Assembly (NCBI RefSeq): GCF_021729865.1
Contig: NZ_CP063400.1
Location: 4,464,001 to 4,528,000, forward strand
Length of the DNA stretch: 64,000 nt
Direction: 5' to 3'
DNA from: Hydrogenophaga sp. SL48
GTDB lineage: Bacteria > Pseudomonadota > Gammaproteobacteria > Burkholderiales > Burkholderiaceae_C
Shown: positions 1,928-24,305 of the stretch, piece after piece
How the letters are laid out: the number at the start of each line of letters is the position of its first letter
How positions within the stretch are numbered: the first letter of the stretch is position 1
Translations under genes and position numbers: made by a program
Notes under the pieces: generated by a model
Database searches by the model: none
What the model was told of the DNA's origin: nothing
The model's input: only the letters and a program-made list of their open reading frames with translations

Positions 1928-2878
1928 TCAGGCCACGGCACGGGCGCCGCGCGTGGCCGACGGCAGCTCGCCGAACAGGGCCTTGTAGTCACTCGCGAAG
2001 CGCGAGGGGTGCCAGAAGCCCCAGCGCGCCGCGACGTCGCCCACCGGCGCCGCCCGGTTCTGGCGCAGCTCGCTGCGCACCTGGTTGAGGCGCATGGCGC
2101 GCAGGTAGGTGACGGGGCTGATCTGCATCACCTCTTCGAAGGCGTACTGCAGCGCGCGCCGCGAGGTGCCGATGGCCTGGCAGAGGTCGGGCACGGCGAT
2201 CACCTCTTGCGCGTGGGCCTGCATGTACTGGCGCGCGCGGGCGACGATGCGGCGCCGGCTGGCGGCCGAGGCGGGCAGCGCGCCCACCGGCCCGCCCGCG
2301 CGCAGGCAGGCGAGCAGGGCGTCGCAGAGCGAGAGCGCGAGCATGCGGCGCGAGGCGGGGTGCAGGTTGTCGCCGTCCGCGCCCTGTGCCAGGCCGAGCG
2401 CGGCCTGCAGCAGCCGGGCGTATTCGGCGCAGGCGGCGACCGAGGGGCTGAGGAGCAGGGGCACGGCGGGCAGTTCCGCGTCGGGGCCGTCGACCTGGGC
2501 CACCAGCGCGCGCAGGGTGGGCACGTCCACCGATAGCGCGAGGATCTGCGTGTCGGCGCCGGCCACGAGGTCGAACTCGCCTTGCGCGGCGACGCCGATG
2601 AGCTGTTCGCCCTGCAGGCGGTGGCCGCTGAACCAGCCGGGCGATGACGCGGCGCGCACGAGCGCGACGGCGACGCGGTCGGCGCTGACGCGGCCGGCCT
2701 GCATGACGGTCTGGTTGGCGCGCTCGGCAAACACCTGAACCGGGCCCACGCGCAGTTCGTCCACCTCGCCGTCGAAGCGCCCGGCCGAGAGCTGCTCGTA
2801 GCGCTGGTCCCAGTCGTGCAGGCTGGCGGCCTGCTCGCCGGCGTCGCGGGCGCGTTTGTGGGAGTGATCGAAGTTCAT
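1928..2878 (-). CDS. AraC-family transcriptional regulator (EutR-like), divergent from tynA
   Basis: A 316-residue regulator. The C-terminal ~100 residues form the AraC double helix-turn-helix (VPDLCQAIGTSRRALQYAFE, then the second unit around GDVAARWGFWHPSRFASDYK). The N-terminal part, with QRYEQLSAGRFDGEVDELRV, is closely similar in layout to the second AraC protein at 5991-6998, and both resemble ethanolamine regulators of the EutR type. It is divergently transcribed from tynA across 130 bases, so it most likely activates the amine oxidase in response to an amine or aldehyde (inference from position). The in-frame start at 3148 would run through the tynA promoter and is rejected. Confidence 0.85.
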   Translation of the reverse strand: MNFDHSHKRARDAGEQAASLHDWDQRYEQLSAGRFDGEVDELRVGPVQVFAERANQTVMQAGRVSADRVAVALVRAASSPGWFSGHRLQGEQLIGVAAQGEFDLVAGADTQILALSVDVPTLRALVAQVDGPDAELPAVPLLLSPSVAACAEYARLLQAALGLAQGADGDNLHPASRRMLALSLCDALLACLRAGGPVGALPASAASRRRIVARARQYMQAHAQEVIAVPDLCQAIGTSRRALQYAFEEVMQISPVTYLRAMRLNQVRSELRQNRAAPVGDVAARWGFWHPSRFASDYKALFGELPSATRGARAVA

Positions 2879-3008
2879 GCGCTCACCGATGCAAGTTGTG
2901 CGCCATTGTTGGGTCGGGCGCAAATTTGCCAAATACGGATAACCCCTCGGTGCCGGGCCACCGTACCGTCCGTGCCTTGTCCGAACCCGCTTCACGAGGA
3001 ACACCGCC
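2879..3008. promoter_or_regulatory. Divergent promoter region between araC-type gene and tynA
   Basis: The 130 bases separate two head-to-head genes and must hold both promoters and probably the AraC binding sites. There is an A/T-richer patch around 2925-2943 in otherwise GC-rich DNA. No clear direct repeats for an AraC dimer could be identified by eye. A GAGGA ribosome binding site lies about 8 bases before the tynA ATG. Confidence 0.4.
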
Positions 3009-14278: not shown

Positions 14279-16492
<2,214 letters not shown>

Positions 16493-16585
16493 CGCAGGTG
16501 CCCTTTCAACGCCGCAGCGGGTTCGGTGGCCGGGCCGGCCTTCGCGCCTGTGCGCCACGGTGCGGCCGGTCAGGAAGGCAGTCTG

Positions 16586-16664: not shown

Positions 16665-17432
16665 TCAGGGCGTGTGCACGTCCCGGGTGTCGTCCAGCCA
16701 CTCCAGCAGCTGCCACCGGCCCGCCAGCGGGCCCCTCTCCACGCGGGCCTGCGCGGCGTCCACGCGGTGCAGCGCACAGGGCAGGGCCTGGCCCTCCAGC
16801 GCGGGCCGGGTGGCGCGCTCCACCGTCCACACGCCGTGCGCCATCGGGCCGAAGGCGATGTCGACGTCCAGCCACGCCGCCGCGCGGTCGGGGTGGCGCT
16901 GCACCACGTCGCCCAGGGTCTCGTCGGGCACCAGGTCGGCCGGCCAGGCGGCGGCGCGAGGACGCAGGTGCATGAGGAACTGTCCCGCCACCAGCAGGCG
17001 CTCGGCGGTGGGCTGGCCGTCCGCATCGAGCCGGGCGAGCGCGATGCGCCGACCGAGCGAGCCGGGCACGCGCTCCCACACCTCAAGGTAGGTCCCGTGG
17101 ATGCCGGTCTCGATCACGCGCGAGGGTGTCTCGAACACCATGTGGCCGGCGTCGGGCGTGCTGCGCGGGGGCTGCACATCGATGACGCGCTGCCAGGTGC
17201 AGACCTCGGGCTGGTCGGGGTCGGGGCGGGTGATGGCGGTGGTGCCGGCGAAGCCCTGCTGTTGCGCCAGGCCCTGCGGCGTGCGGCGGTCTGCGTCGGC
17301 GGGCACGCGCAGGTCGCCGTGCCACAGGCCGGTCTGCAGCCAGCGCACCCAGGTGGTGGTGTCGCGGCCCCCGGGCGTCTCCAGCAGGGTGCGCGCCCAC
17401 ACGCCGTGGTATCGCTCGGGCACCACGGTCAT
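16665..17432 (-). CDS. Conserved unknown protein, possibly HRI1/lipocalin-like, last gene of the riboswitch cluster
   Basis: A 255-residue soluble protein without signal peptide or membrane segment. The sequence looks like two related beta-barrel halves: YHGVWARTLLETPGG and WLQTGLWHGDLRVPA in the first, AFGPMAHGVWTVERATRPALEG and RWQLLEWLDDTRD in the second. This recalls the HRI1-like double-lipocalin family, a weak recollection only. Its ATG overlaps the stop of the cysteine hydrolase gene by four bases, so it is translationally coupled and probably part of the same pathway. Function is unknown. Confidence 0.7.
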   Translation of the reverse strand: MTVVPERYHGVWARTLLETPGGRDTTTWVRWLQTGLWHGDLRVPADADRRTPQGLAQQQGFAGTTAITRPDPDQPEVCTWQRVIDVQPPRSTPDAGHMVFETPSRVIETGIHGTYLEVWERVPGSLGRRIALARLDADGQPTAERLLVAGQFLMHLRPRAAAWPADLVPDETLGDVVQRHPDRAAAWLDVDIAFGPMAHGVWTVERATRPALEGQALPCALHRVDAAQARVERGPLAGRWQLLEWLDDTRDVHTP

Positions 17433-18097
17433 GCAACGACCTGCGCGAGTTGAAGCGCGTCGATCACCTCGTGGGTGCTGCAGACCTTTCCAAAGATGCC
17501 GCCCTCGACACCGATCATGGCCAGCGCCGGGGCCTGCAGCTCGGGCAGGCTGGCAGCGGTGGCGTCGCCGATGGTGAGGCAGTCGAATCCGCGGTCCACC
17601 GCCTCGCGCAGCGTGGAGTGCACGCAAACCTCGGTGGTCACGCCGCAAAGGATGAGCCGGCGGATGCCCAAGGCGGCGAGCAGCGGACCGAGCGTGGTCT
17701 GGTGGAAGGCGCCGTACCCGGGTTTGTCGATCACGTGTTCGCTCGCCAGCGGGCGCAGCGCGGGCACGAAGTCGTGGCCTTGCTCGCCGCGCACCAGCAG
17801 GCGGCCGAGCGGGCCGTGGCTGCCGATGGGCGCGCCGGCCGCGACGCTGCGCGCGAGCTTGGGCGCCGGGCAGTCGGAGAGGTCGGGCAGGTGGCCTTCG
17901 CGGGTGTGCACGATGGTCAGGCCGGCGGCGCGCGCGGCGGCCAGCAGTCGCTGCACATGCGACACCACGGCCTGCATGGGCGCGATGTCGATGCCGGCCT
18001 GGTGGGCGTAGCCGCCGGGGCTGCAGAAGTCGCGCTGCATGTCGATCACGATCAGGGCGGTGAGCGCGGGGTCGAAGCGGTCGGCGGAATGGCTCAT
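17429..18097 (-). CDS. Isochorismatase-family cysteine hydrolase
   Basis: A 222-residue hydrolase with the complete triad of the family: Asp19 in VIDMQRDF, Lys125 in DKPGYGAF and Cys158 in CGVTTEVCVHST. Members include N-carbamoylsarcosine amidase, biuret hydrolase, nicotinamidase and RutB; they cleave C-N amide or carbamoyl bonds. Next to a creatininase-family gene, which it overlaps by four bases, an N-carbamoyl- or ureido-amidase role is the natural guess (inference). It overlaps the following unknown gene in the same manner, so three genes are tightly coupled. Confidence 0.88.
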   Translation of the reverse strand: MSHSADRFDPALTALIVIDMQRDFCSPGGYAHQAGIDIAPMQAVVSHVQRLLAAARAAGLTIVHTREGHLPDLSDCPAPKLARSVAAGAPIGSHGPLGRLLVRGEQGHDFVPALRPLASEHVIDKPGYGAFHQTTLGPLLAALGIRRLILCGVTTEVCVHSTLREAVDRGFDCLTIGDATAASLPELQAPALAMIGVEGGIFGKVCSTHEVIDALQLAQVVA

Positions 18098-18885
18098 GGC
18101 GCGGGGCGGGTGAAGCCGGTGGTGATGGCCTCGGCCATGCGGCGCGCCACCTCGTCGGCGAGCAGCTGGCCCTTGGCGGCGTCGGAACCCCTGGCCGAAG
18201 ACAGCACGCCCGAGGGCGGCACCCAGTCGGTGCGCGGCGGGTACATGTCGTAGGGCGGGAAGTCGGCCGGGCCGTCGTCGGGCAGCAGGTCCAAACGCAC
18301 CAGGCTGGGGTGGTAATGCAACATCATGGACGTTTCGAGCACGGCGGCGTGCTCCAGCGCGAAGCCCGGGAAGCCGTCGGGGAACACGTCACCCAGGGTG
18401 TCGGGCGTCATGAAGTCCCAGTACTCCAGGCGCATCACCTGCAGCGCACAGGCCGGGTCGGCGGCTTTCGCGTCGCGCAGGCCGAGGTCGATGCCCTCGA
18501 TCAGGAACCACTGGTTCTCGTAGTGGCCGTTGACGACCACAAGTTTCGTCAGGCCGTGGCGCGCGAACTCGCGCACCGCATCGCGCACCTGGCCGATCAG
18601 CGTGGCGGCGTCCACGCTGGTGGTGCCGCAGAAGTGTTGCCCGCCGCCGCACTTGGGCTGCGACTTGTAGCCGTAGCTCAGCGTGGGCGCCACCAGCCCG
18701 CCCACCAATGCCGCGGTGTCGGCCGCCACGGCGCTGGCGAGCAGGCCGTCGGTGCCCAGCGGCAGGTGCGGGCCGTGTTGTTCGAGCGCGCCCACGGGCA
18801 GCAACACGGGCGGGTGGTCGGTCTGGATGCGGGCCTGGTAATCGAGCCAGGACAGTTGGTTCATCCACACGGTGGGGGGGTTCAT
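18094..18885 (-). CDS. Creatininase-family amidohydrolase
   Basis: A 263-residue protein with the metal-binding signature of creatinine amidohydrolases: Glu35, His37 and Asp46 in GALEQHGPHLPLGTD, then VVNGHYEN (the family usually has GHGGN) and Glu-rich LEHAAVLETSMMLHYHP. Creatininase opens the creatinine ring to creatine with two divalent metals; relatives act on other cyclic or amide substrates, including MftE peptidases. The gene is 23 bases after the EamA transporter gene and overlaps the cysteine hydrolase gene by four bases. Whether creatinine itself is the substrate is not shown. Confidence 0.85.
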   Translation of the reverse strand: MNPPTVWMNQLSWLDYQARIQTDHPPVLLPVGALEQHGPHLPLGTDGLLASAVAADTAALVGGLVAPTLSYGYKSQPKCGGGQHFCGTTSVDAATLIGQVRDAVREFARHGLTKLVVVNGHYENQWFLIEGIDLGLRDAKAADPACALQVMRLEYWDFMTPDTLGDVFPDGFPGFALEHAAVLETSMMLHYHPSLVRLDLLPDDGPADFPPYDMYPPRTDWVPPSGVLSSARGSDAAKGQLLADEVARRMAEAITTGFTRPAP

Positions 18886-18908: not shown

Positions 18909-19835
18909 TCATGCGGTGGTGTCGGCGGTTCGGGTCGCGGGGGTGTCGGCGGGTGTGCCCCCCAGGGCCTCCACCCCAGCGGCTGTAGCAATGAGCGCGC
19001 CACCCGCCCAGCCCAGGGGCGTGAGGCTTTCGCCGCCGAAGGCGATGGCGGTGCCGACCGAGACCACCAGCTCGGCCAGCAGGATCACCCCCGCGCGGCT
19101 GCTCTCCAGGTGGCTCACGCCGTACTGCCAGGTCACGGTGGCGAGCAGCATCCAGCCGAAGCCGTAGGCCAGCAGCGCCAGCCACACCAGCGGACCGACA
19201 GTGGGCAGGCCCTGGCCGCCCGCGCCAGTGGCCAGGGCCGAGAGCAGGCCGCAGCCGATGAAGACGCAGAAGGTCTTGGTGCGCAGGGGCACGCGGTGCG
19301 CGGCGCGGGCGATCACGTTGTTGGCGGCGAAGGCGAAGCCGGCCGAGAGCGAGAGCGCGTCGACCCAGGTGAAGGCCAGCGCGGTGGAATCGCCCAGCCC
19401 CGGCCCGCCGAGCACCATCCACAGGCCCACGATGGCGGCAACCACGGCCAGCCAGCGCGTGGGCGGAATGCGCTCTTTCAGGAACAGCCAGCCGCCCAGC
19501 ACCGACCACACGGGCGAGAGGTAGAACAGGAACATCACGCGCACCACGTCGCCCAGCATCAGCGCGTTGACGAACGAGGTGTTGGCCCAGCCGCCCACGA
19601 AGGTGAGCGCCAGCACCAGCGCCCACTGCGCGCGCCAGGTCGCGCGGTCGCGCCAGAGCAGCGCCACCGCCAGCAAGCCCACCGAGCCGTAGGTGATCAG
19701 CGCCACCAGCGGCCCCGAGAGGCCCTGCGCGATGAAGCCCTTGAGCGGCATCCACGAGAGGCCCCAGAGCGAGGCGGAGAACAGCAGGACGCCGGTGGCG
19801 ACGCGGTCCGAGGGATGGGCGGGCAGGAGTGTCAT
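18909..19835 (-). CDS. EamA/DMT-family transporter
   Basis: A 308-residue inner-membrane protein with ten predicted helices in two EamA repeats (GVLLFSASLWGLSWMPLKGF opening the first; WVDALSLSAGFAFAANNVIA opening the second). EamA proteins are mostly metabolite exporters, some importers; substrate cannot be read. The ATG at 19835 follows a plausible ribosome binding site. A copy of the window's 3'-UTR repeat lies between it and the upstream SDR gene, after which the same-strand run continues into creatininase only 23 bases downstream, so it probably belongs to the riboswitch-led cluster. Confidence 0.85.
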   Translation of the reverse strand: MTLLPAHPSDRVATGVLLFSASLWGLSWMPLKGFIAQGLSGPLVALITYGSVGLLAVALLWRDRATWRAQWALVLALTFVGGWANTSFVNALMLGDVVRVMFLFYLSPVWSVLGGWLFLKERIPPTRWLAVVAAIVGLWMVLGGPGLGDSTALAFTWVDALSLSAGFAFAANNVIARAAHRVPLRTKTFCVFIGCGLLSALATGAGGQGLPTVGPLVWLALLAYGFGWMLLATVTWQYGVSHLESSRAGVILLAELVVSVGTAIAFGGESLTPLGWAGGALIATAAGVEALGGTPADTPATRTADTTA

Positions 19836-19867
19836 CGGTTGTCCATGACGCCGGAGCAACGACACCC

Positions 19868-19950: not shown

Positions 19951-20712
19951 TCATGTCATCACCGAGCCGCCGTTTGGGCCGAGCACCTGACCGGTGTAGA
20001 AGCGGGAGAGATCGGACGCGAGAAAGAGCGCGCTGGCCGCGATCTCTTCGGGTTCGCCCAGCCGGTGCTGCGGGATGGCCAGTTCCTTCTCGACCCACTC
20101 GGCGCTCATGTGTTCGAGCGAGACCATGGCGGTCGCCACCGGCCCGGGCGCAATGGCGTTGATGCGCACCTGCTGCGGCGCGAACTCGCGCGCCAGCGAT
20201 CTGGTGAGGCCGATCACGCCGGCCTTGGCAGCGCAGTAGGGCGCATACCGCTCGCGACCGAGGATGCCGAGATCGGACGCGATGTTGACGATGGCGCCAC
20301 CGCCGCGCGCCAGCATGCCGGGCAACACCGCGCGACACACCAGGAAAACCGACTTGAGGTCGGTGCCGAGCATCCGGTCCCAGTCGGCCTCGGTGGTGTC
20401 GAGAAAGGCCTTCTCCTGGATGATGCCGGCGTTGTTCACCAGCACGTCGATCGCGCCGAACGCCGCGAGGGCGCCGTCCACCAGGCGCTGCACCTCGGCG
20501 GCCTGGCCCACGTCGGCGCTGATCTCGATGGCCTCGCCGCCCAGGACCTGAATGGCCTGCACCAGCGCGGCGGCTTCGGCGGCTTGCCCGAGGTGGTTGA
20601 CCACCACGCGCGCGCCGGCCTGCGCGAACAGCAGCGCGGTCGCGCGGCCGATGCCGGTGGCGGCGCCGGTGATGAGCGCCGTGCGTCCTTGCAAAGAAAG
20701 CGTGGGCGTCAC
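19951..20712 (-). CDS. Short-chain dehydrogenase/reductase (FabG-like)
   Basis: A 253-residue classical SDR: cofactor loop TGAATGIG, NNAG, catalytic Tyr/Lys in YCAAK and a C-terminal GGSVM ending. VVVNHLG after the second strand lacks the acidic residue that selects NAD, so NADP is possible. It overlaps the next SDR gene upstream by four bases, placing it third in the desaturase-SDR-SDR set. Together with the second SDR it probably oxidises a hydroxylated product of the desaturase-like enzyme, or reduces a carbonyl (inference). The stop is followed at once by a copy of the repeat. Confidence 0.88.
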   Translation of the reverse strand: MTPTLSLQGRTALITGAATGIGRATALLFAQAGARVVVNHLGQAAEAAALVQAIQVLGGEAIEISADVGQAAEVQRLVDGALAAFGAIDVLVNNAGIIQEKAFLDTTEADWDRMLGTDLKSVFLVCRAVLPGMLARGGGAIVNIASDLGILGRERYAPYCAAKAGVIGLTRSLAREFAPQQVRINAIAPGPVATAMVSLEHMSAEWVEKELAIPQHRLGEPEEIAASALFLASDLSRFYTGQVLGPNGGSVMT

Positions 20713-21494
20713 AGCATCACCTCACCGTGGCTGGGCGAGAGGCACTGGCCCGTGAGCGGCGCGGCGCCCTCACTCGCAAGAAACAGGAACACGCCCGCGA
20801 GCTCGGCGGGTGTGAGCATCGTCTGCACGGCCTGGCGCGACAGGATCTCGCGCTCGACCTCGGCCTCGCTTTTGCCCTGCTCCAAGGCCATGGCGGCGAG
20901 CGAACGCATCGCCGCCTCGGTGCGCACCCAGCCCGGGCAGACCGCGTTGACGCGGATGCCGCGCGGCCCGAGTTCGAGCGCGAGCGAACGCGTGACGCCC
21001 ACGACCGCGTGCTTGCTCGCGCTGTAGGCCGAGAAGCCGGCCACGCCGGTGCGGCCCCAGATGGAACTCTGGTTGATCACGCTCGCGCCGCGCGGCAGCA
21101 GGGGCAACAGCGCCTGCGTGAGCCGCACCATGGACGAGACGTTGTTGTCGAGCAAGCCGGCCCAGCGCGCCATGAACCCAGGGTCCACATCCGCCAGCGG
21201 TGTCGGGTATTCGGTGCCGGCGTTGTTGACCAGCACGTCGAGCAGGCCGTATCGGTCTTTCACCTGCGCGGCCACCACCGCCACCTCGGCATCGCTGCTG
21301 AGATCGCACACAGCGCTGTGCACCTGGTGGCTGTGCAGCGACTCGACCAGTGCGTCCAGCGGCGCGGCCGCGCGGTCCAGCAGCATCAGGCGCGCGCCCT
21401 GCGCGAGGAAGGCGCGCGACAGCGCGCTGCCGATGCCGCCGGCCGCGCCGGTGATGAGCACCGTCTTGCCCTGCAGGCCGTAGTTCACAGTCAC
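20709..21494 (-). CDS. Short-chain dehydrogenase/reductase
   Basis: A 261-residue classical SDR with TGAAGGIG, acidic Asp in MLLDRAAAP (favouring NAD), NNAG and the catalytic YSASK. It shares four bases with the stop of the desaturase-like gene and four with the next SDR, so the three are one translational unit. The C-terminus departs from the other SDR (LSPSHGEVML), so the two are not a simple recent duplication. Substrate unknown; an alcohol generated by the upstream oxygenase is a reasonable guess. Confidence 0.88.
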   Translation of the reverse strand: MTVNYGLQGKTVLITGAAGGIGSALSRAFLAQGARLMLLDRAAAPLDALVESLHSHQVHSAVCDLSSDAEVAVVAAQVKDRYGLLDVLVNNAGTEYPTPLADVDPGFMARWAGLLDNNVSSMVRLTQALLPLLPRGASVINQSSIWGRTGVAGFSAYSASKHAVVGVTRSLALELGPRGIRVNAVCPGWVRTEAAMRSLAAMALEQGKSEAEVEREILSRQAVQTMLTPAELAGVFLFLASEGAAPLTGQCLSPSHGEVML

Positions 21495-22501
21495 ACCGCC
21501 GTCAGGAACGACACACCGACAGCGCCCACGAACCCATCCGCACGGTGCGGCGCGCCCGGCGGCAGCACCGCACCATAGTCGCTGGCCAGCACGCGGGTCA
21601 CGCGGTGGCGGTGGTAGGCGCGCAGCAGCTCACCCACCGTGACCACCTGCGCATTGCCCTCGGGGTAGAGCTCGCGGTGCAGCTTCGGCAGCTGGTACCA
21701 GGGCGCGACCGGCCGCTCGTGGTGCGCGTTGTGGAAGCCGAAGTTGAGCCACACCAGGTTGAGCCACTTCGCATCGAGTCCGACCACGTCGCTGTAGGTG
21801 TTGGCCTGCTCGTAGGCGCGGTCGCGCAGCTTGTCTTTGGGGATCGGCGTTTCGTCAAGGATGGGGTAGGCGTCGTAGGTGTGCTGGAAGCAGTCGGCGA
21901 AACGCAGCAGGTGCACGAACAGCAGGTAGGCCAGCGCGTAGAGCGCCAGGGCCTTGAGCGACCACCAGGCGAGCAACGCCCAGGCGGTGAGCCGCACCAC
22001 GGCGACACCGATCACACGGCCACGCGCCGCCTGCTTGCGCTCGCCCATGAAGGGCAGCGCGACCACGAAGCCGCGCATGACGAACTCCACCGCCGGGATG
22101 TGCAGCCACTCCAGCGCGAGCACCACGCGCCGCACCAGCGGGTGCGCGCGCAGGAAACCCTGCAGGTCGAAGGTGATGACGTCGGCGCGCTCGACGTGGT
22201 GGCGCATGTGTTTGCGGCGCAGGTCGGCGAAGCTCGCGTAGGCGCTGCCGTTGATCCAGCTCATGAATTTTCCCCAGCGCTCGTTGGCCTGCGGCGTGCG
22301 GAAGATGGCGTGGTGCGCGAACTCGTGGATGAAGTAGGCCGACCAGGTGAGCGTGAGCGTGACCAGCAACACGCCGAGCGCGTTGAGCGCCCAGTGCGAC
22401 TGCCCGAGCAGGGCGATGCCCAGCGGCCAGCCGAGCACGGTGAAGCTGAGGGCGGCGGTGTTGGGCCACACGCCGTCGGCATGACGGAAAAGGGATGGCA
22501 T
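21491..22501 (-). CDS. Membrane fatty-acid-desaturase-family diiron enzyme
   Basis: A 336-residue integral membrane protein with the three histidine boxes of the desaturase/hydroxylase superfamily: HEFAHH (59-64), HMRHH (98-102) and HNAHH (about residue 270). These bind two irons and activate oxygen for C-H oxidation. Family members include lipid desaturases but also small-molecule hydroxylases and alkane monooxygenases. The position, behind a guanidine-type riboswitch and fused by overlap to two SDR genes, argues for a metabolite oxidation step instead of membrane-lipid desaturation, but this is inference. No ferredoxin or reductase partner is adjacent. Confidence 0.85.
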   Translation of the reverse strand: MPSLFRHADGVWPNTAALSFTVLGWPLGIALLGQSHWALNALGVLLVTLTLTWSAYFIHEFAHHAIFRTPQANERWGKFMSWINGSAYASFADLRRKHMRHHVERADVITFDLQGFLRAHPLVRRVVLALEWLHIPAVEFVMRGFVVALPFMGERKQAARGRVIGVAVVRLTAWALLAWWSLKALALYALAYLLFVHLLRFADCFQHTYDAYPILDETPIPKDKLRDRAYEQANTYSDVVGLDAKWLNLVWLNFGFHNAHHERPVAPWYQLPKLHRELYPEGNAQVVTVGELLRAYHRHRVTRVLASDYGAVLPPGAPHRADGFVGAVGVSFLTAV

Positions 22502-22587: not shown

Positions 22588-23616
22588 TTACTTGGCGAGC
22601 GCCTTGACGAGCGAGGCGTCGAAGGTGGCTTCGGTGGCCGGGGCGGCCTTGATCTGGCCCTTGGCCACGAGCAGTTGGCCAATGATTTCGCCGCTGGCGT
22701 AGTAGGAGGTGGTTTCCTTGGCCTTGACGAAGGCCTTGGGCATCTCGGCGAGCGGGATGTTGTACACACCGCTCATCTGCTCCTTGGCCTCTTTGGCGGA
22801 GACGCCCATGAACTTGCCGATGATCTTGGCGGCGTCGTCCGGCTTGGCCTTGATGTAGGCCAGGCCTTCAAGGTAGGCCTTCATGATGCCGGTGATCTCG
22901 GCGGGCTTGGCCTTGATGACCTTGTCGTCGAACACCAGCACGTCGGCGATCAGGCCCGGCGCGTCTTTCGAGGAGAACACCACCTTGAACTTCTTGCCAC
23001 CACCCTGGCCGAGGATCTGCGACAGGCTGGGCTCGTAGGTCACGCCGATCGGCAGCGCGCCCGAGGCCATGGCGGCCGGCACGGCCTCGGGCGTCATGCT
23101 CACGGGGTTGATGTCTTTCTCGCTGAGATTGACCGTTTTCAGCGCATACGAGAGCAGGAAGTCACTGGGCGAGAGCGGGTTGTAGCCGATCTTCTTGCCC
23201 TTGAAATCGGCCACCTTGCCGATGCTGCCGTCGGCCACGATGGCGTCGCCACCGTTGGAGTAATCGATGGGCATGACCACCTTCATGTTCTTGCCGCCAG
23301 CCACCTGGCCGACCACCTGGTCGTAGGTCAGCATGCCGCCGTCGACCGCGCCCGAGGCGATGGCGGCCGGGATCAGGGCCGGGTCGCTGAAGACCTGCAG
23401 CGAGACCTTGAGCTTCTGTTTTTTGTAGAGGTCGAGCGCGTCGGCGACGTAGAACGGGCCGTAGCCGATCCAGACCACGGTGGCGATTTTCATCTGCGTC
23501 TGCGCGAAGGCCGAGGCGGTGGCCAGGGTGAGCGCCGCGCCCACGGCGGGCTTGAGCCAGCGTCCCAGCGGGGACGGCGAAACAGAAGAGGAAGAGAAGA
23601 GGCCTGCCAATGTCAT
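22588..23616 (-). CDS. NMT1/THI5-type ABC transporter substrate-binding protein, riboswitch controlled
   Basis: A 342-residue periplasmic binding protein with a long signal region ending near residue 38 (TASAFAQ). The mature start MKIATVVWIGYGPFYVADAL is the hallmark of the nitrate/sulfonate/taurine/thiamine-precursor group. No permease or ATPase gene is present beside it, so it is an orphan in this window and must share a transporter. It is the first gene after the guanidine-I riboswitch; binding proteins of this type are a usual target of that riboswitch class. The ATG at 23616 follows GGAG with a six-base gap. The ligand is not proven. Confidence 0.88.
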   Translation of the reverse strand: MTLAGLFSSSSVSPSPLGRWLKPAVGAALTLATASAFAQTQMKIATVVWIGYGPFYVADALDLYKKQKLKVSLQVFSDPALIPAAIASGAVDGGMLTYDQVVGQVAGGKNMKVVMPIDYSNGGDAIVADGSIGKVADFKGKKIGYNPLSPSDFLLSYALKTVNLSEKDINPVSMTPEAVPAAMASGALPIGVTYEPSLSQILGQGGGKKFKVVFSSKDAPGLIADVLVFDDKVIKAKPAEITGIMKAYLEGLAYIKAKPDDAAKIIGKFMGVSAKEAKEQMSGVYNIPLAEMPKAFVKAKETTSYYASGEIIGQLLVAKGQIKAAPATEATFDASLVKALAK

Positions 23617-23646
23617 GTGAAGCTCCGGTGGTGGGTGAAAGGCGCA

Positions 23647-23675
23647 GGGAGAACACGATCAGACGTCGTTCTCCC
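23647..23675 (-). promoter_or_regulatory. Expression-platform hairpin overlapping the riboswitch 3' end
   Basis: The arms GGGAGAAC and GTTCTCCC form a perfect 8-bp stem with a 13-base loop. One arm shares the GGGAGA that forms the conserved 3' end of the aptamer, so the ligand-bound aptamer and this hairpin exclude each other. There is no U-run after it, so transcription termination is not certain. Confidence 0.55.
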
Positions 23676-23775
23676 GGGCTTTTGTCCCTCCGTGGAGCCT
23701 GCGATCAGGCCGGACCACTCTCGGACCAGACCCCACGTGTGACGGTGGACGGAACCCTAGTGGACCTACGCACGA
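23668..23775 (-). promoter_or_regulatory. ykkC/guanidine-I riboswitch
   Basis: Read on the minus strand, the region contains in order the conserved blocks of the ykkC class: ACTAGGGTTCCG (about 23763-23752), CTGGTCCGAGAG (about 23729-23718) and ACGGAGGGACAAAAGCCCGG followed by GAGA (about 23693-23670). These are the nucleotides that build the guanidinium pocket in subtype-1 RNAs. Spacing and the GTCCAC/GTGGTCC-type flanking pairs fit the published fold. It lies about 55 bases before the binding-protein ATG and in the right orientation. Guanidine normally turns such genes on. Subtype 2 variants (ppGpp, PRPP) are less likely given the intact CCCGGGAGA end. Confidence 0.9.
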
Positions 23776-23802
23776 GCCGCTGCCAACCACGTGCAGACCG
23801 CT

Positions 23803-23831
23803 CTCCATGCTGCAACGGTCAATGCATGGAG
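23803..23831. promoter_or_regulatory. Inverted repeat upstream of the riboswitch
   Basis: Arms CTCCATGC and GCATGGAG are separated by 13 bases and lie just upstream of the aptamer. On the minus strand a TTGACC sequence (23822-23817) sits between the arms and could be a -35 box. It could be a protein operator acting above the riboswitch, or chance. The rest of the 335-base gap (23617-23951) holds no gene. Confidence 0.35.
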
Positions 23832-23951
23832 CGTGCCAGGGCCTGATGGCACCCATTTGCACCAAAGCACGGCGTCACGGCGGTTCGGGCCACCAGGAGC
23901 GCACCGACCCGGGGCATAGAATGCCCGCCACCTCCCGGAACCCCCACCCCC

Positions 23952-24305
23952 ATGCCCCACACCACGCCAGCCTGTCCGCAATGCGGCCTTGAAAACACCT
24001 ACCCCGACGGCAGCAACTTCGTCTGCCCCGACTGCGCCTTTGAATGGCCTCAAGCCGCCGCCACCGGCGACGAGGAAGCGGCCGGCGACGGCACCGTGAA
24101 GGACGCCCACGGCAACCCGCTGGCCGACGGCGACTCGGTGATCCTGATCAAGGACCTGAAGGTCAAGGGCTCGTCCACCGTGCTCAAGAAGGGCAGCAAG
24201 ATCAAGGGCATCCGCCTGGTCGACGGCCACGACGGCCACAACGTGGACGGCAAGACCGAGCTGGGCCCCATGCTGCTGAAGTCCGAATTTCTGAAGAAGG
24301 CCTGA
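23952..24305 (+). CDS. yjdM: Zinc-ribbon protein YjdM (PhnA family)
   Basis: A 117-residue protein with an N-terminal zinc ribbon (CPQCG at 9-13 and CPDC at 25-28) and the conserved PhnA C-terminal domain (VKDAHGNPLADGDSVILIKD, then LKVKGSSTVLKKGSKIKGIR). Despite the old name it is not the phosphonoacetate hydrolase. The cellular role is unknown. It is divergent from the riboswitch cluster and 67 bases before an FAD protein gene. Confidence 0.95.
   Translation: MPHTTPACPQCGLENTYPDGSNFVCPDCAFEWPQAAATGDEEAAGDGTVKDAHGNPLADGDSVILIKDLKVKGSSTVLKKGSKIKGIRLVDGHDGHNVDGKTELGPMLLKSEFLKKA

Follow-up and report, generated by a model that had tools for sequence, protein, structure and literature searches.

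A guanidine-I riboswitch of Hydrogenophaga sp. SL48 precedes a conserved oxygenase, dehydrogenase and amide hydrolase cassette that probably releases guanidine from a larger compound

The window, a stretch of 64,000 nucleotides of the Hydrogenophaga sp. SL48 genome, contains a riboswitch of the guanidine-I class (ykkC subtype 1). The aptamer itself is unremarkable, and it is the operon behind it that is of interest. With a probability of roughly 0.6, we read this operon as the upper pathway of guanidine catabolism, which would free guanidine from a substituted or cyclic guanidine under the control of an ON riboswitch. The reading draws on the class of the riboswitch, the conservation of the cassette, its co-occurrence with a carboxylase operon, the protein families and the patterns of key residues, from which we infer every enzymatic step, the substrate and the switching mechanism. 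The features of the locus are as follows.

23669 to 23771, minus strand: guanidine-I riboswitch aptamer (RF00442, 79.6 bits, full-length match)
23647 to 23675, minus strand: predicted expression-platform hairpin re-using the aptamer 3' GGGAG, terminator-like and U-poor
23623 to 23626, minus strand: likely ribosome binding site GGAG, read from the sequence, before the SBP start codon at 23616
22588 to 23616, minus strand: SBP, substrate-binding protein of the NMT1/SsuA type (PF09084, PF13379)
21491 to 22501, minus strand: DES, membrane di-iron enzyme of the AlkB/fatty-acid-desaturase type (PF00487; His boxes invariant in 16/16)
20709 to 21494, minus strand: SDR1, short-chain dehydrogenase (PF13561, PF00106; YxxxK in 58/58)
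19951 to 20712, minus strand: SDR2, short-chain dehydrogenase (PF13561, PF00106; YxxxK in 65/65)
18909 to 19865, minus strand: EAM, EamA transporter of the DMT superfamily (PF00892)
18094 to 18885, minus strand: CREA, creatininase-family hydrolase with altered lid residues (TIGR04448, 348 bits; PDB creatininase, 251 bits)
17429 to 18097, minus strand: ISO, isochorismatase-family hydrolase of the biuret hydrolase branch (PF00857; PDB biuret hydrolase, 217 bits)
16665 to 17432, minus strand: HYP, HRI1-like double beta-barrel protein (pLDDT 95.1; 3rby, E 3.7e-6, prob 1.00)

The genes follow the switch in the order SBP, DES, SDR1, SDR2, EAM, CREA, ISO and HYP; four of the seven junctions overlap and the remaining ones are shorter than 100 bases. 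On the same strand, a CopA-like heavy-metal P-type ATPase gene (14279-16558) begins about 100 bases past the operon, and in several relatives the second guanidine operon, described below, stands near this position instead.

The sequence-only reading had placed a subtype 1 guanidine aptamer of the ykkC class at 23668-23775 on the minus strand, directly before an NMT1-type binding protein gene, and the covariance search bears out both the class and the place. RF00442 matches 23771-23669 (-) with 79.6 bits against a cut-off of 63 (E = 1.6e-12 for the whole window), aligning over the entire model (1-107 of 107) and containing each of the three conserved blocks, and the ATG of the SBP gene lies 53 bases past the 3' end of the aptamer. 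This is the sole Rfam match at the gathering threshold in the 64-kb window. For the region 23600-23850, where the same reading had proposed a covariance search, a permissive scan (E <= 10) returned guanidine-I and two sub-threshold miRNA models and no second riboswitch class, in a release (Rfam 15) that may lack separate models for the subtype-2 RNAs (ppGpp, PRPP). The window RNA thus shares with guanidine-I the full-length covariance match, the site in a 5' leader and a 3' GGGAG common to a downstream hairpin; no difference was found within the aptamer, and the only departure is the small number of U's after that hairpin. Upstream of the riboswitch lies a small divergent gene, 23952-24305 (+), whose product presumably resembles a PhnA/YjdM zinc-ribbon protein.

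Of 74 distinct switch sequences, some taken from second operons, 71 are predicted to form a hairpin in which the aptamer 3' GGGAG is used again. Its stability exceeds that of dinucleotide shuffles with a mean z of -2.1 (n = 65), and 57% of the sequences reach the 5% level. The following U tract is poor, with one to three U in the next eight bases in 61 of 71, a consensus terminator scan of the window called no terminator, and the window leader alone folds no better than shuffles (z -0.78, an uninformative value); these three observations count against the upper-pathway reading. The ribosome binding site falls outside the hairpin. Judged from sequence, the guanidine-I switch before SBP is most likely an ON switch, and its mode is likely to be transcription termination that guanidine prevents: bound guanidine would hold the GGGAG in the ligand-bound fold, so that the downstream hairpin, which would otherwise end transcription before the SBP gene, could not form.

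The host genome (5.43 Mb, one contig) contains exactly two guanidine-I matches at E <= 0.001, the second of which, at C1:4461672-4461790 (-), lies some 2.2 kb beyond the left edge of the window, about 26 kb from the first. Behind it come a TauC-like permease, an ATPase, UAAP1, UAAP2 (which we take to be CgdB and CgdA), a 1207-residue carboxylase and an allophanate hydrolase. In NCBIfam, the model that this carboxylase matches is that of urea carboxylase (1887.9 bits against a cut-off of 1303.85), which counts against the upper-pathway reading, but we read the protein as a putative guanidine carboxylase because of the switches, the UAAP1/2 genes and the usual make-up of such operons. This second operon is the known guanidine degradation route, and the operon in the window is therefore something additional. 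The two share a genome, a guanidine-I switch and the logic of an NMT1-type ABC transporter, whereas the window operon is without carboxylase, CgdAB and allophanate hydrolase, has DES, the SDRs, CREA, ISO and HYP in their place, and encodes a binding protein only 33% identical to the canonical one. The description of the window genes as a catabolic-looking operon consequently stands with two amendments: the known guanidine-degrading enzymes sit behind the other switch, 26 kb off, and the window operon, guanidine-linked as had been proposed, is better read as a route yielding guanidine than as one consuming it.

The second operon also holds a riboswitch of another class, a guanidine-II aptamer outside the window (L083:12084-12131 (-), 39.7 bits, cut-off 32) between UAAP2 and the carboxylase gene. 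Guanidine-II lies inside the carboxylase operon in L097, L098, L100, L101, L106, L107, L109, L110, L111, L069 and L082 as well, and was called just before the carboxylase gene in 8/14 loci of one set, in 3/8 of another and in L097. These operons also start with guanidine-I, giving one operon, one ligand and two riboswitch classes.

Co-occurrence ties the cassette to guanidine metabolism. Among 200 genomes of the host family, host included and not chosen on DES, guanidine-I is found in 16 and DES in seven, all of them within the 16 (hypergeometric 5e-9, counting genomes as unrelated). In six of these seven, aptamer and DES share a strand, with the aptamer 1.1-1.2 kb upstream; the seventh is a Tepidimonas operon. 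A protein of the carboxylase family (urea/guanidine) is encoded in 12/12 DES genomes examined, seven from the host family and five from other families, which links the genes downstream of the switch to guanidine metabolism. Among the best 80 of 92 loci, 33 have carboxylase, Cgd or allophanate hydrolase matches in the fetched DNA, and 11 further loci have permease or ATPase matches only. The canonical SBP before the permease of the second operon is missing in 5/7 DES genomes and present in 7/9 guanidine-I genomes without DES (in L098 at only 37% identity); the stretch fetched for L099 and L104, which have guanidine-I without DES, gave no transporter match. From this pattern, the cassette SBP seems to stand in for the canonical binding protein on a shared transporter.

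Genome contigs were scanned for DES and the best 80 of 92 loci were kept; with the window added to these 80, the cassette count covered 79, L039 and L052 being left out by a filter that had missed their DES, present on later inspection. Of the 73 cassettes, window included, that have 1.5 kb or more of upstream sequence, 71 carry a guanidine-I motif ahead of SBP-DES, a count of pattern matches rather than covariance scores; in a cmscan of nine motif-bearing loci besides the window, eight passed and L040 missed the covariance cut-off. That most of the 71 motifs rest on a pattern, and that L040 failed, weakens the upper-pathway reading. The two motif-less cassettes, L028 and L078, stand directly behind carboxylase and allophanate hydrolase genes. 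The genome of L028, taken as the same Tepidimonas contig as L097, has everything in a single extended operon, which runs from guanidine-I through the canonical SBP, permease, ATPase, UAAP1, UAAP2 and guanidine-II to carboxylase, allophanate hydrolase, SBP, DES, SDR2 and CREA. The expectation that the switch would name the chemistry of otherwise odd genes agrees with the cassette-wide motif and with the co-occurrence counts. A side observation is L061, where two guanidine-I aptamers lie back to back (2415-2557 (-) and 2851-2968 (+)), one facing the cassette and the other permease and ATPase genes.

Of the loci retrieved, that of Hydrogenophaga sp. A37 (L003) is nearest to the host, its DES being 94-95% identical. 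In the 55 loci with full flanks we counted SBP in 55, DES in 55 (a constancy built in, as DES was the bait), HYP in 53, EAM and ISO in 48 each, SDR2 and CREA in 46 each, SDR1 in 42 and an AiiA-like MBL hydrolase in 37. The modules are dispensable, as the CREA and ISO counts show, and this tells against the upper-pathway reading. SDR2 and CREA occur together in 46/46 full-flank loci having either; outside this set the pairing is broken in L061, where CREA stands without SDR2, and in L033, L034, L044, L063 and L066, five loci in which SDR2 stands without CREA. The MBL hydrolase, where present, lies between ISO and HYP; profile A3, which detects it in genomes G428 and G387, found none in the window or the host genome. 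We searched SBP-HYP gaps longer than 550 bases and found no extra gene inside variant cassettes that hints at a substrate: such gaps held only the missed DES of L039 and L052, and the others lay outside the cassette.

In a wider set, 398 Pseudomonadota genomes gave DES in seven, host included. In three of these seven, L091-L093, from another family, a single guanidine-I aptamer precedes cassette, permease and ATPase alike; SDR1 gave no match in L093, and neither L092 nor L093 has an MBL match. Two further genomes have a more distant DES (42-45%; L094 and L095). The 20 kb retrieved around it contains no aptamer, a point against the upper-pathway reading, although both genomes have one elsewhere. 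The neighbours of this DES are a TIM-barrel protein (AP_endonuc_2) and a second ABC transporter of the NMT1 type (L094:8996-13709, L095:6794-11556), which did not reveal a substrate; as a side reading, these loci may represent a kindred pathway that acts on a different compound. On a plasmid of Gloeothece verrucosa PCC 7822, a relative of DES (36%; L096:8920-10023) has genes for ectoine synthase, GNAT and tryptophan halogenase next to it; this neighbourhood may be a biosynthetic cluster but is suggestive only.

The residues of the enzymes give further indications of their chemistry. In DES, the His-box residues H58, H62, H97, H100, H101, H206, H256, H259 and H260 are invariant in 16/16 sequences, as expected of a membrane di-iron oxygenase of the fatty acid desaturase superfamily. 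DES shares PF00487 and the His boxes with AlkB and the fatty acid desaturases but differs from them in having no significant PDB relative in a sequence search and no match at E <= 0.001 in a structure search; in the latter, with a model of confidence 73.1, FtAlkB was third in the list (prob 0.93, E 0.13), a weak structural resemblance to AlkB as far as the model goes. ISO keeps the catalytic Asp, Lys and Cys of biuret hydrolase (PDB 6xjm), with D19 in 59/59 and K125 and C158 in 58/59 with one gap each, whereas Glu198 (58/59, one gap) stands where the two aligned PDB hydrolases of the biuret/triuret type have Gln, and the score of 252 bits is below the BiuH equivalog cut-off of 370. The branch placement of ISO stands, and on these two grounds we rejected it as a true biuret hydrolase; a carboxylate in place of the Gln suits a guanidinium group, and guanylurea hydrolase, presumably, is a close known system, by description rather than sequence. 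HYP reaches 19.7 bits against PF16815 (HRI1 family; cut-off 27), and its model (pLDDT 95.1) has as best structural match 3rby, which we take to be YLR301w, that is HRI1 (prob 1.00, E 3.7e-6, TM 0.56).

CREA passes the NCBIfam creatininase model TIGR04448 (348.1 bits, cut-off 235) and resembles Pseudomonas putida creatininase (PDB 1j2t, 3a6e) in overall family and in its metal ligands. It differs in the lid, where the W and D of the P. putida enzyme are F175 (55/56) and A176 (56/56) across the cassette family; the roles of ligands and lid are those we assume for the creatininase positions. The family placement stands, and a true creatininase was rejected on the two lid residues.

Taken together, the DES His boxes, the Glu of ISO, the family of CREA and the exchange of SBP suggest import of a substituted guanidine, its oxidation and the hydrolysis of an acylguanidine. 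SBP would import a substituted or cyclic guanidine together with the permease and ATPase of the second guanidine-I operon, and DES would hydroxylate a carbon adjoining a guanidine nitrogen. Oxidation by the SDRs may then give an N-acyl or cyclic acyl guanidine, from which CREA, acting on a ring amide, and ISO, acting on a linear acylguanidine, would release guanidine and a carboxylic acid. The guanidine released would induce both operons by product feedback and would in turn be degraded through the carboxylase, UAAP1/2 (CgdAB) and allophanate hydrolase. The fuller proposal, an as yet undescribed oxygen-dependent pathway that releases guanidine from a natural substituted or cyclic guanidine, with its own SBP replacing the guanidine-binding one on a shared ABC transporter and a riboswitch that senses the pathway's product, is more tentative, and we place it somewhat below even odds.

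A creatinine-type pathway is a named special case of the upper-pathway explanation, and as a specific proposal it is unlikely: creatinine or its nor-analogue would be hydroxylated at the ring CH2 by DES and oxidised by an SDR, after which CREA would open the ring and ISO would split the product to oxalate and methylguanidine or guanidine. The creatininase score, the retained metal ligands and the pairing of SDR2 with CREA in full-flank loci are consistent with it, but the altered lid, the nine of 55 full-flank loci without CREA and the CREA without SDR2 in L061 are not. Less probable still is an alternative route consuming free guanidine, for example through oxidation by DES. The switch, by its class, senses guanidine, but with the carboxylase route in all 12 DES genomes, judged by the carboxylase alone, a second such route would be redundant, and it offers no obvious place for the amide hydrolases. 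A tolerance operon, with guanidine as a membrane-disturbing toxin, DES tuning the lipids and EamA exporting guanidine or its relatives, appears slightly more doubtful again. DES belongs to the fatty acid desaturase Pfam family and the drug/metabolite transporter superfamily of EamA also contains guanidine exporters, but the closest equivalog among the fatty acid desaturases (cut-off 500) gives DES 24 bits, leaving the lipid-adaptation reading weak, and the cassette encodes a binding protein along with two amide hydrolases and is found in the company of carboxylase genes. That the aptamer is a ykkC subtype-2 RNA for ppGpp, PRPP or another nucleotide, the subtypes having their core in common, is very improbable and was ruled out on score given the full-length guanidine-I match, the lack of a rival class in a model set that may omit subtype 2, and the carboxylase operon in its company.

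Returning to the upper-pathway reading, the switch hints at the function of genes that annotation by itself would class as desaturase, dehydrogenase, creatininase and isochorismatase. A conserved cassette under a guanidine switch, combining oxygenase, dehydrogenases and amide hydrolases and accompanied by the carboxylase in 12/12 DES genomes examined, points to a definite precursor class and narrows the enzymes worth assaying to a few. To our knowledge, it is largely open where bacteria meet enough free guanidine to warrant dedicated riboswitches and degradation operons. The cassette probably cuts guanidine out of some larger compound, which would help to explain the source of the guanidine that bacteria sense; if true, a guanidine-releasing pathway names a biological source of the free guanidine sensed by these riboswitches.
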